This document shows, piece by piece, positions 39,484-45,357 of a DNA stretch of 64,000 nt (positions are counted from its first letter, which is position 1; the number at the start of each line of letters is the position of its first letter). Origin of the DNA: Pedobacter sp. ASV28 (lineage in GTDB: Bacteria; Bacteroidota; Bacteroidia; Sphingobacteriales; Sphingobacteriaceae). The stretch is taken from NCBI RefSeq assembly GCF_016428855.1, contig NZ_JAELTN010000003.1:1-64000 (forward strand). The letters run 5' to 3'. A program made the position numbers and the translations under genes. A model generated the notes under the pieces. It worked only from the letters and a program-made list of their open reading frames with translations, did not search any database and had not been told where the DNA came from.

Positions 39484-39499
39484 TTTAGATTAATCTAAA
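39484..39499. promoter_or_regulatory. MntR-type operator palindrome at the TonB receptor promoter
   Basis: TTTAGATTAATCTAAA is a perfect 16-bp palindrome of form TTTAGA-N4-TCTAAA. It lies four bases upstream of the -7 element TATTTTTG (39504-39511), in the -33/spacer region, well placed for repression. The same arms with spacing 4 recur at 45342-45357 on the mntR promoter. A shorter related word TTTAGATTTG occurs at 39440-39449. Confidence 0.72.
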
Positions 39500-39503
39500 T
39501 TTA

Positions 39504-39511
39504 TATTTTTG
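39504..39511 (+). promoter_or_regulatory. -7 element of the TonB receptor gene
   Basis: TATTTTTG, an exact TAnnTTTG match, 18 bases upstream of the ATG at 39530. Confidence 0.6.
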
Positions 39512-39529
39512 TGAAACTAATTTTTGAAC

Positions 39530-41815
39530 ATGAAAAGATATATACTATTGTTTCTGGCTTACTTCTTATCTGTATTTTATGTTAAGGCCCAAGATTTTGT
39601 AATAAAGGGAGTAGTAGAGAGTGGTGATGTTAAAGTACAAAAGGCTACACTTCGCTTAATAGAGCTGCAACGTTCTAGTCAAACTAATGAATATGGAGAA
39701 TTTGGTTTTGTAGCCATAAGCCCCGGTAAATACCAATTACGTATTAGTGCTTTGGGCTATAAAACTCAGTTAAATACCATTTATATAACTGGCGACACCA
39801 TTTTGAATTTTAATCTGGTTGAACAGAAAGAAGATCTTAGCGAAGTGGTCGTTACGGGCACTTATAAGGAAGTGAATAGGTTGGAGAGCCCGGTTCCGGT
39901 AGAAATTTATACGGCAAAGTTCTTCAGGAAAAATCCAACACCCAGTATTTTCGATGCGCTACAGAATGTAAATGGCGTAAGACCCCAGTTAAATTGTAAT
40001 ATATGTAATACGGGCGATATTCACATTAACGGTTTGGAAGGACCATATACCATGGTGTTGATTGATGGTATGCCGATTGTCAGCAGTTTATCTACTGTGT
40101 ATGGTTTATCGGGTATTCCTAACTCATTGGTAGAAAGAATAGAAATTGTCAAGGGACCCGCCTCTTCTTTGTACGGAAGTGAAGCAGTAGGTGGCCTGAT
40201 CAATATCATTACCAAAAATGTAAATCATGCACCCCGATTTAGTGCTGATGTGATGAGCACAAGTTACTTGGAAAACAACATAGATGTGGGATTCAAGACT
40301 AACTTTGGAAAGAAAAGCACAGTGCTAACAGGCCTGAATTACTTTAAATATGGCCATAAGGTAGATCATAATCATGATGGTTTTACAGATGTGACCTTGC
40401 AGGACCGCATTTCGGTTTTTCAAAAGTGGAACTTCGACAGAAAAGAAAATAGATTGTTTTCTTTAGTTGGCAGGTTCTTGTATGAAGATAGGTGGGGAGG
40501 CGAAATGGGATGGAACAAGCATTTTAGAGGTGGTGATGAGGTATATGGCGAGAGTATATACACTAAACGTTTTGAGCTGCTGGGTAATTACCAGTTGCCT
40601 ATCAAAGAAAAAATGTTCTTTTCTTTCTCTATGACAAACCATGACCAAGACAGTAGGTATGGTACGACCTCTTACATTGCGCAACAACAAATTGCTTTTT
40701 CTCAGCTTACTTGGGACAAAAAGATAGGGAGGCATGATCTCTTATTTGGTACGGCTTTTAGGTATACTTACTACGACGATAATACGCCTGCAACAGCGTC
40801 GGCCAATTTGCTAAATGAAGAGAATCAACCTGAACGCACCTATTTGCCTGGCATTTTTATACAAGATGAAATTAAACTTGCCTCCAAACATGCACTCCTG
40901 TTGGGGATGAGGTATGATTATAATTCTATTCATGGTCATATTTTTACTCCGCGTTTAGCATATAAATTCAATTTTGATGAGACAAGCATACTTAGGTTAA
41001 ATGCTGGAACTGGTTTTAGGGTGGTCAATATCTTTACGGAAGACCATGCCGCCTTAACTGGGGCAAGAGAAGTAGTTGTTGCAAATGAGCTGAAACCAGA
41101 AAGGACTTATAATGTGAATTTGAACTACCTGAAAAAACTTTTCTCTACAAATGGTTCCATATATACTTTCGATCTTTCTTCGTTTTATACGCATTTTAAG
41201 AATCGGATTGTAGGAGATTATGAAACCAATCCGAATGAAATAAGGTATGATAATCTAAAGGGTTATGCCGTAAGTAAAGGCATAACGGCCAATATAGATG
41301 TGGCTCTAAGGGCTGGGTTAAAAATTAACGCAGGCATTACTTATCAGGATGTTTCACTGATGGAAGATGGCGTGAAAACCCAACAAATATTAACAGAGAA
41401 ATTCATGGGGACCTGGGCGATTTCCTATCGTATTGAAAAGCTTAATCTTGGCATTGATTATACAGGAAATATTTATGGGCCCATGCGATTACCTTTAATT
41501 AGTGAATTAGATCCACGTAAGCCTTATTCGCCTGCTTGGAGTATTCAGAATATTCAGTTTGTATATAATGGCTTTAAGCATATAGAGCTTTATGCAGGGG
41601 TTAAAAATCTTTTGAATTTCACGCCAAATAAAGGTAATCCATTTATCATTGCCCGAGCCAACGATCCATTTGATAAACAAGTGCAGTTTGATGGCGAAGG
41701 AAAGGCAATGGTCACACCAAATAATCCGTATGGTTTAACCTTTGATCCGAGTTATGTATACGCCCCAAATCAGGGCATTAGGGGGTTCTTTGGGCTGAGA
41801 TTGACATTTAATTGA
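39530..41815 (+). CDS. TonB-dependent outer membrane receptor (predicted metal or chelate uptake)
   Basis: A 761-residue outer-membrane transporter. The ATG at 39530 (MKRYILLFLAYFLSVFYVKAQ) gives a signal peptide; the TTG two codons upstream is rejected. Residues ~22-100 are a carboxypeptidase-regulatory-like domain. The plug (~110-225) has LSEVVVTGTYKEVNR, LNCNICNTGDIHINGLEGPY and VERIEIVKGPASSLYGSEAVGGLINIITK. The rest is a 22-strand-type barrel ending in GIRGFFGLRLTFN. The Cys-x-x-Cys in the plug is unusual for siderophore receptors generally but occurs in a Bacteroidota branch. The MntR-like operator upstream suggests manganese uptake. A secreted thioredoxin-fold gene follows after 71 bases. 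Confidence 0.9.
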   Translation: MKRYILLFLAYFLSVFYVKAQDFVIKGVVESGDVKVQKATLRLIELQRSSQTNEYGEFGFVAISPGKYQLRISALGYKTQLNTIYITGDTILNFNLVEQKEDLSEVVVTGTYKEVNRLESPVPVEIYTAKFFRKNPTPSIFDALQNVNGVRPQLNCNICNTGDIHINGLEGPYTMVLIDGMPIVSSLSTVYGLSGIPNSLVERIEIVKGPASSLYGSEAVGGLINIITKNVNHAPRFSADVMSTSYLENNIDVGFKTNFGKKSTVLTGLNYFKYGHKVDHNHDGFTDVTLQDRISVFQKWNFDRKENRLFSLVGRFLYEDRWGGEMGWNKHFRGGDEVYGESIYTKRFELLGNYQLPIKEKMFFSFSMTNHDQDSRYGTTSYIAQQQIAFSQLTWDKKIGRHDLLFGTAFRYTYYDDNTPATASANLLNEENQPERTYLPGIFIQDEIKLASKHALLLGMRYDYNSIHGHIFTPRLAYKFNFDETSILRLNAGTGFRVVNIFTEDHAALTGAREVVVANELKPERTYNVNLNYLKKLFSTNGSIYTFDLSSFYTHFKNRIVGDYETNPNEIRYDNLKGYAVSKGITANIDVALRAGLKINAGITYQDVSLMEDGVKTQQILTEKFMGTWAISYRIEKLNLGIDYTGNIYGPMRLPLISELDPRKPYSPAWSIQNIQFVYNGFKHIELYAGVKNLLNFTPNKGNPFIIARANDPFDKQVQFDGEGKAMVTPNNPYGLTFDPSYVYAPNQGIRGFFGLRLTFN

Positions 41816-41886
41816 TGAGATAGGTTTAAGGTTTAATTGTTGAAAATATGGGCGGTTCTATATCGCCCATATCTATTTTTTTATTG

Positions 41887-42351
41887 ATGAAAAAGTTGCT
41901 TTTCTGTATCATGATGTTTTTTAACCTCTTGACATATGGTCAACAAATAAAGGAGCAGCTTAAAAGTTATAAAATTGATCAATTAGAGAAATTACAAAAA
42001 GTGGAACCAAGAAAGGTATTAATCTACGTTTATGCCAGTTGGTGTAGTTACTGCAAGGCTATGGATCAGGTAGTTTGGAGGGATACATCTATAATCAGGC
42101 TATTGAATCGGTCTGTATACTTTGTAAAATTCGACGTTGAACAACAAGATGTGGTTTTTTTCAATGGAGCAAAATATGATTTTAAGGCAAGCAAAGGTGT
42201 TCATGATTTCGTATTGGAAATTACCCGTAGTAAACATCAAATAGCCTATCCAATGTTGGTGCTTTGGAGCGAGGATTATAAACCACTTATTGAATATCAC
42301 AGTTTTCTTTCGGCTAAAGAACTTAAGGAAATATTACTAGCGTATTTATAG
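41887..42351 (+). CDS. Secreted thioredoxin-fold protein with CxxC
   Basis: A 154-residue periplasmic protein. The ATG at 41887 (MKKLLFCIMMFFNLLTYGQ) gives a signal peptide. The thioredoxin fold has VLIYVYASWCSYCKAMDQVVW with a WCSYC active site, and the cis-Pro region IAYPMLVLWSEDYK. It resembles the thioredoxin_7 / DUF255-like group rather than TlpA. It follows the TonB receptor on the same strand with no terminator between, so it is probably part of the MntR-controlled unit. A substrate could be the plug CxxC of the receptor; that is speculation. Confidence 0.87.
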   Translation: MKKLLFCIMMFFNLLTYGQQIKEQLKSYKIDQLEKLQKVEPRKVLIYVYASWCSYCKAMDQVVWRDTSIIRLLNRSVYFVKFDVEQQDVVFFNGAKYDFKASKGVHDFVLEITRSKHQIAYPMLVLWSEDYKPLIEYHSFLSAKELKEILLAYL

Positions 42352-42368
42352 GACGCTCATCTTTCTTA

Positions 42369-42777
42369 TTATATTGTGGCCTTAATTTTATAAATCGTTT
42401 TAGCTATTGATTTTGTGGGTTTATCCATATCATTTATGGTAAAATCAACAGCTGTTCTTATTAAAGTTTCCACTTTTGGATGGTTATAGTCGTTTTGTTC
42501 TTTTACATCGATATGTCTGACCAGGTTGCCTGTTCCTAGTAAGTAAATGATCGGGATCTTTTAGAAGGGGGGCTTTATTAAAGCGAGCTTTAGATGTTTA
42601 GTGTAGATGGGTAGCATGCAGAACGCATCAGATAGCTTCTCAGATATGAAAAACAACGGTCAGTGCATGGGTATGGTACGGCATCTGGGTAAATTTTTAA
42701 GATAGAGGAGCTTAAATCACAAAACAGTTCGATAACTTTTGCGGTTTCAATTTTAATAGCGCTTGAAAAGCTGCGTG
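42369..42777 (-). pseudogene. Frameshifted remnant of a DUF1801-like gene
   Basis: Minus-strand translation gives consecutive protein-like pieces in different frames: VIELFCDLSSSILKIYPDA, then KLSDAFCMLPIYTKHLKLA, then FNKAPLLKDPDHLL, then LGTGNLVRHIDVKEQ continuing to a TAA at 42371-42369. Joined, they read as one protein resembling the DUF1801 family (YPDAV, FC-L-Y-KH--L-F, LL-GTG---RHI). At least three frameshifts and no start codon make it a dead gene. It fills the gap between the receptor operon and mntH. The family name is from memory of conserved words. Confidence 0.7.
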
Positions 42778-42807
42778 TTTTTTAGATCGAGTTCAAATAG
42801 AGATTTT

Positions 42808-44667
42808 TTATCGGACAATTAATACCGGAATATCCACTTTGTGCCTTACCGAGTCTACGGTTGTGCCAAATATCAAATCTTTTAAGCCTTTATGGCCATG
42901 AGCACCCATTACCAATAGCTCTATATGGTTTTCCCTGCTAATTTCGGCTATAGCTTTTGAAGTACTTCCAAAACCAATATGCGGTGTAGCAGAATAGCCC
43001 AATTCTTTTAAGTTCTCTTGGTATTTCCTTAGATTATCTGCATCTGATTGTGTTTCGTGATCCAAAGCGGTTTCACCATGATAGCGTGCTGCTGCGGTCT
43101 CCACCACATGGATAAGATAATAATGGGCCGACTTTCCTCCTTGTATCAATGCATGGCGAATGGTATTTCTATCATTTTTAGAAAAATCGACAGTAATGCC
43201 AATCTTGCTGTAATTGATTTTTTCAATATTGGCTATGGCCAAAGCATTACCATGAGGGACATTGCCCAATCTTTTCTTTTTATTGATGAGGGGGTACATA
43301 AAGATATAGACCAGGAGTAGTCCAATAAGGATAGCCATAGGGACGACAAGGCCATAGATATACCAAGCGTTCGATTCAGATAGCCAACCGTTAATTTCCT
43401 CGATAACCAGTTTGATATTTAAGCTTACAATAACTAGGGCACTTAGCCAAGCTAAGATTTTAACCCAAGTTTTAATGGTAAACTCTTTCATTTCTTCCTT
43501 ATCTGAATTGAGATGGATAAGCGGTATGATAGCAAAGCCCAGCTGTAAGCTCAATACCACCTGACTTAAAATCAAAAGACCTCCCAAGGCCCTATCGCCA
43601 AAGTAAAGTATGGTAAAGAATGCGGGTATAATGGCCAGTAGTCTGGTAATTAAACGTCTCAGCCAAGGTTGTATCCTCAAATTTAAATGTCCTTCCATTA
43701 TAATTTGTCCGGCAAGTGTACCTGTAACCGTAGAACTTTGTCCGGCTGCGATTAGGGCAATAGCAAAAAGAGCTGGAGCCACATCGCCAAAAATATTGCT
43801 AAGCAGTTCGTGGGCATCTTGGATTTCGGCTACTTCATGAAAACCGTTTTTATAAAAAGCTGCAGCTGCTAAAATCAGTATAGCGGCATTCACAAAAAAT
43901 GCGAGGTTTAAAGCTACGGCAGTATCTATAAAATTGAACTTAATGGCCTCTTTAATCCCGGGCGAATCTCTTTCGAATTTACGGGTTTGCACAAGAGAAG
44001 AATGTAGATATAAGTTGTGGGGCATTACCGTGGCACCTATAATACCTATTGCAATATATAGCGCTTCTCCTCCCAACATAGAGGGTTCAAAACCTTTTAC
44101 AATTTCTTTTAGGGAAGGTTCCACAATAAACATTTCCACCAGAAAGGAAAGGCCCACAATAAACACCATGGAAACAATAAAAGCTTCCATTTTTCGCATG
44201 CCTTTGTTTAAGAGAAAAAGCAATAATACGGTATCGAATATGGTAATGGAAATGCCCCATATGAGCGGTAGGCCAAATAAAAGATTTAATCCGATGGCCA
44301 TTCCAATAATTTCAGCCAGATCGCAAGCTATAATGGCTGTTTGCGCCAGTATGAACAAAGGAAAATTTACCCATTTGGGATAAGTGTTTCTAGATGCCTG
44401 CGCTAAATCTAGTCCCCTTACAATACCCAGTCTGGCACTTAGCGACTGTAACAATAGGGCAATAAGGTTCGACATCAATAACACCCAAATCAATTGGTAG
44501 CCAAATTTACTGCCGCCTGCAATATCTGTCGCCCAATTACCAGGATCCATATAGCCAACGCTTACTAAGTAAGCAGGACCTAGAAATGCTAATATTCTTC
44601 TCCAGCCTTTACGTTTGTTGGTGGCTATACTCTGATGTACTTCGCTTAATGATTGTTTTTCGGTCAT
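42808..44667 (-). CDS. mntH: NRAMP manganese/metal transporter MntH with C-terminal UspA domain
   Basis: A 619-residue inner-membrane proton-coupled divalent metal importer fused to a universal-stress domain. Residues ~20-450 hold 11 membrane segments, with the metal-site words DPGNW (segment 1, in YMDPGNWATDI) and VMPHNLYLHSSLVQTR (segment 6, Ala/Met-Pro-His). Residues ~475-619 are a UspA domain starting KIGITVDFSKNDRNTI and ending with the nucleotide-binding VMGAHGHKGLKDLIFGTTVDSVRHKVDIPVLIVR. The start overlaps the mntR stop (TAATG), giving a two-gene operon. Usual MntH is about 410-450 residues; the extra 150 are the fused domain. Confidence 0.95.
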   Translation of the reverse strand: MTEKQSLSEVHQSIATNKRKGWRRILAFLGPAYLVSVGYMDPGNWATDIAGGSKFGYQLIWVLLMSNLIALLLQSLSARLGIVRGLDLAQASRNTYPKWVNFPLFILAQTAIIACDLAEIIGMAIGLNLLFGLPLIWGISITIFDTVLLLFLLNKGMRKMEAFIVSMVFIVGLSFLVEMFIVEPSLKEIVKGFEPSMLGGEALYIAIGIIGATVMPHNLYLHSSLVQTRKFERDSPGIKEAIKFNFIDTAVALNLAFFVNAAILILAAAAFYKNGFHEVAEIQDAHELLSNIFGDVAPALFAIALIAAGQSSTVTGTLAGQIIMEGHLNLRIQPWLRRLITRLLAIIPAFFTILYFGDRALGGLLILSQVVLSLQLGFAIIPLIHLNSDKEEMKEFTIKTWVKILAWLSALVIVSLNIKLVIEEINGWLSESNAWYIYGLVVPMAILIGLLLVYIFMYPLINKKKRLGNVPHGNALAIANIEKINYSKIGITVDFSKNDRNTIRHALIQGGKSAHYYLIHVVETAAARYHGETALDHETQSDADNLRKYQENLKELGYSATPHIGFGSTSKAIAEISRENHIELLVMGAHGHKGLKDLIFGTTVDSVRHKVDIPVLIVR

Positions 44668-45320
44668 TAGTACTTGCTGATTAGTATATGTTTGGCAACT
44701 TCCCTGCTGATATTGATTTTTTGCTGTTCTACATCCAATGCTACCGAGCCATCAAATTCGATCACTTCTAATACTTCTATCCGTTTGCCTAAAGTTAATC
44801 CTAGTTTTTCCAAATGCTTTAAAAAAGCAGAAGAATGCTCGCTTACTCCAGTGATGGTACCTTTTTCCGAAGGACTTAATTTACTTAATTTAACAAAAGC
44901 TAACTCCGCAAAATTACCATGTTGGTCGGGAATGGGGTCGCCATGGGGATCAACTTTGGGAAACTCTAAAAATTCATCCAATCTTTCGATCAATAAGGAA
45001 GATTGAATATGTTCCAGCTCTTCGGCAACTTCGTGCACTTCATCCCATTTGAAGTTAAGTTTGTCTACCAAAAAAACCTCCCATAAACGATGCTTTCTAA
45101 CAATATTGATGGCGGTAAGCTTTCCTTTTTCCGTTAAGGTTACCCCTTGGTATTTAACATAATTGACCAATTCTTTTTCCGAAAGCTTTTTGATCATATC
45201 AGTTACAGATGCTGCCTTGGTTTGAATACGCTCGGCTATAGCATTAGTTTGAACCGGATTGCTTATTTCTGATAAATGGTATATGACTTTTAGGTAGTTC
45301 TCTTCGGTATAAGATTGCAT
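44667..45320 (-). CDS. mntR: DtxR family manganese-responsive repressor MntR
   Basis: A 217-residue metal-dependent repressor with an N-terminal winged helix (NAIAERIQTKAASVTDMIKKL), a dimerisation/metal domain and a C-terminal SH3/FeoA-like domain (LTLGKRIEVLEVIEFDGSVAL). Relative to DtxR the ancillary ligands are kept (His in RKHRLWE, Glu, His in EVHEV). The position of DtxR Cys102 is Glu in AEELEH, and Glu105-His106 are conserved. Cys to Glu is the change that favours Mn over Fe in MntR. DtxR Met10 is Asn here (MntR has Asp). The ATG at 45320 is used; the longer frame starts inside the operator. Its operon with mntH supports the role. Confidence 0.92.
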   Translation of the reverse strand: MQSYTEENYLKVIYHLSEISNPVQTNAIAERIQTKAASVTDMIKKLSEKELVNYVKYQGVTLTEKGKLTAINIVRKHRLWEVFLVDKLNFKWDEVHEVAEELEHIQSSLLIERLDEFLEFPKVDPHGDPIPDQHGNFAELAFVKLSKLSPSEKGTITGVSEHSSAFLKHLEKLGLTLGKRIEVLEVIEFDGSVALDVEQQKINISREVAKHILISKY

Positions 45321-45341
45321 TTTGCTTGATCTAATTATTAT

Positions 45342-45357
45342 TTTAGACAAATCTAAA
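45342..45357. promoter_or_regulatory. MntR-type operator overlapping the mntR -7 element
   Basis: TTTAGACAAATCTAAA has perfect 6-bp arms TTTAGA and TCTAAA around four bases, as at 39484-39499. On the minus strand the site contains TAGATTTG (45355-45348), an exact -7 element, 28 bases before the mntR ATG. Repressor binding here would block RNA polymerase directly, giving metal-dependent autoregulation of mntR-mntH. Confidence 0.75.

Follow-up and report, generated by a model that had tools for sequence, protein, structure and literature searches.

Is a TonB-dependent receptor of Pedobacter, encoded beside mntR and mntH, a member of the MntR regulon, and which metal does it carry? Bacteroidota, found in the gut, soil, and sea, possess many TonB receptors without a known ligand. 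Outer-membrane manganese uptake is, to our knowledge, known in very few bacteria. A literature search with most subscription journals outside its scope found no report of a manganese TonB receptor in Bacteroidota. A tight regulon gives this receptor family a testable substrate. The evidence below suggests that Bacteroidota probably use an energised receptor to bring a scarce metal, most likely manganese, across the outer membrane.

Genes and promoters of the locus

The window is the whole 64-kb stretch of Pedobacter DNA that was analysed, and its relevant features are listed in Table 1. Pfam and NCBIfam matches uphold the gene assignments of the original prediction: TonB receptor, thioredoxin-like protein, NRAMP transporter, and DtxR-family regulator. 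The regulator is composed of the Pfam domains PF01325, PF02742, and PF04023, and has a single match in its own genome (E <= 1e-20). The thioredoxin-fold gene is found 3' of the receptor gene in 49 of 113 orthologous loci. The MntH of the window is an NRAMP domain fused to a C-terminal universal stress protein (Usp) domain.

TTTAGA-N4-TCTAAA was originally predicted to occur twice in the window, just 5' of the receptor -7 box and over the -7 box of mntR-mntH. A pattern search of the full 64 kb returned exactly these two matches, and 100 dinucleotide shuffles of the window returned none. Both boxes are perfect copies of TAnnTTTG, the sigma-A -7 consensus in Flavobacterium (PMC9723704). As read from the sequence, operator 2 starts 37 bp ahead of the mntR ATG.

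Table 1. Features of the receptor and mntR-mntH locus in the window.
Feature	Position	Strand	Evidence and remarks
Operator 1, TTTAGATTAATCTAAA	39484..39499	+	5' of the receptor gene; exact palindrome; kept in 98 of 113 orthologues
Receptor-promoter -7 box, TATTTTTG	39504..39511	+	Perfect TAnnTTTG; 4 bases past operator 1
TonB-dependent receptor, 761 aa	39530..41815	+	Signal peptide, CarboxypepD_reg, plug with C156-N-I-C159, beta-barrel; from Pfam/NCBIfam, invariant residues, and fold
Thioredoxin-fold protein, WCSYC motif, probable signal peptide	41887..42351	+	Pfam Thioredoxin_7; probable operon partner of the receptor
mntH, NRAMP Mn2+ importer with C-terminal Usp domain	42808..44667	-	NCBIfam MntH at 579 bits (cutoff 430); Pfam matches to Nramp and Usp
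mntR, DtxR/MntR-family regulator, 217 aa	44667..45320	-	HTH, metal/dimer, and FeoA/SH3 domains; presumed reader of both operators
Operator 2, TTTAGACAAATCTAAA on the plus strand, TTTAGATTTGTCTAAA on the minus strand	45342..45357	-	Overlaps the mntR-mntH -7 box; from sequence; kept at mntR promoters of relatives
mntR-mntH -7 box, TAGATTTG	45348-45355	-	Perfect TAnnTTTG, inside operator 2

Conservation of the operator

Receptor orthologues were taken from 38 of 101 family genomes and from 80 named loci, mostly Bacteroidota (including Pedobacter, Daejeonella, Kaistella, Chryseobacterium, Flavobacterium, Galbibacter, Niastella, and Crocinitomicaceae), giving 113 distinct receptors. NTTAG-N6-CTAAN is present between -250 and +90 of the receptor start in 98 of them, whereas five letter-permuted control palindromes match the same 113 receptors 0, 1, 1, 1, and 2 times. 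Within 2.03 Mb of loci the motif occurs 176 times, and 102 of these occurrences sit in the 38 kb of receptor-upstream DNA. The start codon was mis-set in five of 15 receptors initially lacking a site (L106, L109, L117, L126, and L129), and the site is present further upstream. In L053 the site is 559 bp away and was left uncounted, and L115 carries a degenerate site. About ten of the 113 receptors, mainly from genus g4, have no operator near the start. Receptors of this genus (L053, L056, L058-L060, and L062) possess the plug CxxC and no operator near the predicted start, and a PAT-type regulator is encoded elsewhere in the genome where this was checked.

When the promoters are aligned on the operator, information peaks on the arms, is lower in the spacer, drifts in the flanks, and rises again at the -7 box. 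On the 3' side of the operator, 67 of the 98 orthologues carry an exact TAnnTTTG (56 at one of two adjacent spacings), compared with 3 of 98 for shuffled flanks. The operator and the box are 4-5 bp apart. Many Pedobacter receptor promoters (L074, L075, L079, L082, and others) carry an extra CTAAA or TCTAAA half-site ~12 bp 5' of the operator, which is perhaps a second, overlapping binding site.

The arrangement extends beyond the family. A phylum sample of 296 genomes gave a receptor match in 70. TTTAG-N6-CTAAA and the plug CxxC are kept in many receptors of other families with 36-41% identity, and a DtxR-family gene is often found within ~3 kb of these distant receptors. An mntH gene that lacks a fused upstream mntR carries an operator of its own (nine of nine loci), which ties the receptor to mntH itself.

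Genome-wide counts and the possibility of chance

The sites could be chance A+T-rich palindromes, with the receptor outside MntR control. Genome-wide specificity was assessed by pattern searches. The complete genome of the window's own strain contains six exact TTTAGA-N4-TCTAAA places, against four for the reversed control pattern, so the genome count alone is near background and proves nothing; the evidence is position and conservation. The four additional places fall on a terminator hairpin, on the corA start codon, inside a long open reading frame, and near the start of a short one.

Other genomes separate the two sites. G007, a single contig of 4.3 Mb, has no exact sites other than one at the receptor and one at mntR, with 378 kb between them. 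The two promoters also account for both exact sites in G021 and in G086. In G029, 905 kb separate the receptor and mntR sites, and the further matches are two terminator hairpins; in G071 the distance is 600 kb, and the further matches are three intragenic places. Phylum-wide positional conservation, these unlinked two-site genomes, and the covariation with the regulator described below speak against chance. This origin of the sites was rejected on conservation, and we regard it as scarcely credible.

Across 11 genomes there are 39 exact sites, and 19 of them lie at promoters of receptor or DtxR-family genes. The other 20 are composed of eight terminator hairpins, ten sites inside open reading frames of 90 codons or more, one close to a short-frame start, and the non-conserved one overlapping corA. 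A wider regulon was rejected, as the remaining exact sites in these genomes are terminator hairpins (of the AAAAGGCTTTTAGANNNNTCTAAAAGCCTTTT type), coding sequence, and the corA start codon. All 14 corA homologues lack an exact site, and corA was therefore left out of the regulon.

The probable reader of the operator

The operators form two classes, TTTAG..CTAAA, to which the window belongs, and GTTAG..CTAAC. The first is paired with an A[AS]SV[TS]D recognition helix in 40 of 40 receptor genomes, and the second with PAT/MPT-type helices in 37 of 37. The outer base, T or G, and the helix type are concordant in all 77 genomes, including those where the genes are unlinked. On the receptor tree, the operator class switches six times, and all five supported independent pairs are concordant, a number of pairs for which the best p that a sign test can reach is 0.06. 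Because the operator base tracks the recognition-helix type, a DtxR/MntR-family protein very probably reads the receptor operator, as judged from the sequences.

Pedobacter cryophilus (L037/L084) encodes a regulator of either type, and each is accompanied by the corresponding operator. In L037, GTTAG..CTAAC is located at the receptor and TTTAG..CTAAA at mntR-mntH. Receptor and mntH are thus under different regulator classes in some lineages, which was counted against the preferred explanation, a two-promoter regulon under MntR. In the window's own genome, GTTAG-N6-CTAAC occurs in three places, fewer than its control, and none was at a metal gene as far as inspected. The switch of the outer base, with its matching helix change, is a natural set for decoding DNA specificity in the DtxR family. 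The swap of one base pair per arm provides a ready-made test of MntR-DNA specificity.

The original prediction had grouped the receptor, thioredoxin-fold protein, NRAMP importer, and sensor into one regulon. Footprinting, unlinked genomes, separate mntH operators, and operator-regulator covariation all agree with this grouping, and the motif is neither scattered at random nor lacking upstream of receptor orthologues. We consider it nearly certain that the receptor, thioredoxin-fold protein, MntH, and MntR share one regulon.

Manganese or iron

Residues H77, E81, H96, E100, E103, and H104 are invariant in an alignment of 92 MntR homologues. Position 100 is E, not the iron-type Cys, in all 92. 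Asn occupies position 8 in 87 of these homologues and Asp in four; BsMntR, whose ligands are D8, E99, E102, and H103, has D there and DtxR has M, with ligand identities and roles taken from PMC4805248. Among solved structures, 5zr4 (a metal-dependent regulator, presumably the Deinococcus protein DR2539), SloR, and ScaR come closest to the window MntR, and IdeR and DtxR rank behind them.

Manganese or a manganese complex is favoured as the receptor ligand, with moderate confidence, because mntH shares the operator, E stands at the iron-sensor Cys position, the E103/H104 pair is present, and the nearest solved regulators are those named. The choice is uncertain because of N at position 8, the dual response of a Deinococcus relative, FeoB-like and ZIP-like neighbours, and the invariant plug cysteines. 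Cys is a poor, non-classical ligand of Mn(II).

The same regulon could instead serve iron. The regulator would sense iron, or iron and manganese, the receptor would import an iron complex, and MntH would be a general divalent Mn/Fe importer. The regulator belongs to the DtxR family, whose sensors can respond to iron too. DR2539 of Deinococcus is a DtxR-family repressor of mntH that answers to both Mn and Fe (PMC3327659). By inspection, a FeoB-like gene adjoins 13 receptor loci and a ZIP-like gene 11. The receptor fold comes closest to those solved for Cir, BtuB, and FepA, and a related locus in Stenotrophomonas answers to combined Mn and Fe limitation (PMC13217887). Opposed to this are the E found in place of the iron-marking Cys in 92 of 92 regulators and the identity of the importer that repeatedly shares the operator, mntH. 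In addition, the MntR of Porphyromonas gingivalis binds the promoter of FB2, the only known Mn transporter of that species (PMC4805248). We judge the iron reading unlikely, though a serious contender. Some Flavobacteriaceae loci (e.g., L146 and L149) have FeoB-like and ZIP-like genes near a divergent MntR-family gene.

Structure of the receptor and candidate metal sites

The receptor has a plug and a 22-strand barrel, as seen from the Pfam Plug and barrel matches and from a model resembling Cir. The model (pLDDT 84.1, pTM 0.78) has the standard TonB receptor fold. In a structural search, Cir (Z 34.0, 576 aligned residues, rmsd 2.8) and BtuB were closest. The search identified the general TonB receptor fold alone, and the likeness to Cir and BtuB does not name a ligand.

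The plug CxxC is invariant in the family as C[NSGA][IV]C. In the window receptor it is CNIC, with C156 and C159 located in a plug loop between model strands 150-154 and 162-166. An alignment of 44 receptors has three further invariant stretches, D279-x-N281-x-D283-x3-D287, H371-x-Q373, and E504-x-H506. The D279-D287 stretch is between two barrel strands and is probably extracellular loop 2.

These residues raise the possibility of a copper or zinc receptor in the same regulon, with the metal bound by the plug cysteines and the receptor derepressed in general metal starvation. We know of no MntR control of OprC, the comparator here. OprC is a TonB receptor for ionic copper in which a plug cysteine and a barrel HxM bind the bare metal (PMC8610252). 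C156-x-x-C159 and H371-x-Q373 of the window receptor recall the plug CxxxM and barrel HxM copper site of OprC (PMC8610252), and the two sites differ as CxxC plus HxQ and CxxxM-HxM. The structural search matched OprC (Z 28.1, rmsd 3.0 over 538 residues, with 15% identity in the alignment) along with most TonB receptors. The recurrent neighbourhood contains no recognised Cu- or Zn-specific gene except the ZIP-like gene at some loci. Its repeated partners are MntR and MntH, and the ligand set of the regulator is MntR-like, all of which make a copper or zinc receptor quite improbable.

Hypothetically, the plug CxxC contacts the metal directly. By analogy with OprC, it is possible that a plug cysteine and the barrel HxQ both bind it, and the downstream thioredoxin-fold protein may keep the plug cysteine pair reduced. 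A fuller version is offered tentatively, and we doubt it more than we believe it. The phylum-wide receptor would bind bare Mn2+ or Mn2+/Fe2+ between the plug CxxC and H371-x-Q373/E504-x-H506, with the DxNxDxFxD loop outside and the thioredoxin-fold protein gating loading or release via CxxC reduction. If true, this would be siderophore-free, redox-gated outer-membrane metal import under MntR.

Proposed mechanism

The explanation that we prefer, and hold with good confidence, is a two-promoter metal-uptake regulon under MntR. With ample cytoplasmic metal (most likely Mn2+, possibly Fe2+ too), metal-loaded MntR would bind the 16-bp palindrome at both promoters. Bound over or just 5' of the -7 box, it would block sigma-A polymerase. 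When the metal is scarce, MntR would leave the DNA, and the TonB receptor, its periplasmic thioredoxin-fold partner, MntH, and MntR would be made. The receptor would then move the metal or a metal chelate through the outer membrane on TonB energy, and MntH would carry the metal across the inner membrane. We infer MntR binding and repression at both promoters from sequence, and the redox action of the thioredoxin-fold protein on the receptor CxxC is likewise presumed.

Relation to known systems

The closest known system is an MntR-controlled module of a CQNC-type TonB receptor and a periplasmic thioredoxin-fold protein (pTFP) in Stenotrophomonas maltophilia, described by Argueta-Zepeda and others in May 2026 (PMC13217887). 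A TonB receptor with CQNC in its plug is followed by the thioredoxin-fold gene and adjoins mntR and mntH. An mntR mutation derepresses the module, and limiting Mn and Fe together induces it. It is sparse, with synteny conserved in Lysobacterales, Sphingomonadales, and Opitutales (PMC13217887). Compared by description, the Pedobacter locus has the same parts: a receptor with a plug CxxC, a thioredoxin-fold gene, mntR, mntH, and, as in Stenotrophomonas, promoters of receptor and mntH that each carry an MntR box, here a candidate one. This neighbourhood is recurrent. The plug motif differs, since the window receptor has CNIC and its family C[NSGA][IV]C rather than CQNC, a separation that is also by description. 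A plasmid search with the receptor gave distant matches only (about 22-31% identity) and no CQNC comparator. The Stenotrophomonas MntR box is 25 bp and is also found at mntP, whereas the operator here is the 16-bp TTTAGA-N4-TCTAAA at Bacteroidota-type -7 boxes. The Stenotrophomonas module is narrow in distribution, and the Bacteroidota version recurs across many families.

MnoT is similar to the window receptor in being a TonB-dependent receptor tied to manganese limitation, and differs in regulation. We take it to be present in Bradyrhizobium as well. In Burkholderia thailandensis this manganese receptor works with TseM, a secreted Mn-binding protein, as mentioned in PMC13217887. Among regulators, PgMntR of P. 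gingivalis is, like the window MntR, a Bacteroidota DtxR/MntR-family protein with a C-terminal FeoA domain, and it binds a Mn-transporter promoter. Unlike the window MntR, it has two FeoA domains, the ligands Asp19 and Cys108, and FB2 as its target (PMC4805248). The word TonB is absent from the main text of that paper (PMC4805248).

The original prediction proposed TonB-driven, MntR-controlled manganese uptake that would be new in Bacteroidota. The shared regulon is strongly supported, and manganese as the cargo is still an inference. The novelty holds for Bacteroidota, and the idea has its precedent in Stenotrophomonas (PMC13217887). On computational evidence the regulon is real, new as a phylum-wide variant and not wholly new as an idea. 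In gene order, the window locus matches the Stenotrophomonas module; it belongs to another phylum, has CNIC in the plug and an operator of a different kind, and is distributed far more widely. What was described in 2026 from a few lineages is thereby extended to a system that is likely widespread among Gram-negative bacteria.

A second DtxR-family gene

G004 encodes a second DtxR-family gene (L207, G004:C34, 2071) that has its own exact TTTAGACGTATCTAAA promoter site and is divergent from the gene of a 399-aa probable lipoprotein. This gene is possibly a further branch of the regulon.
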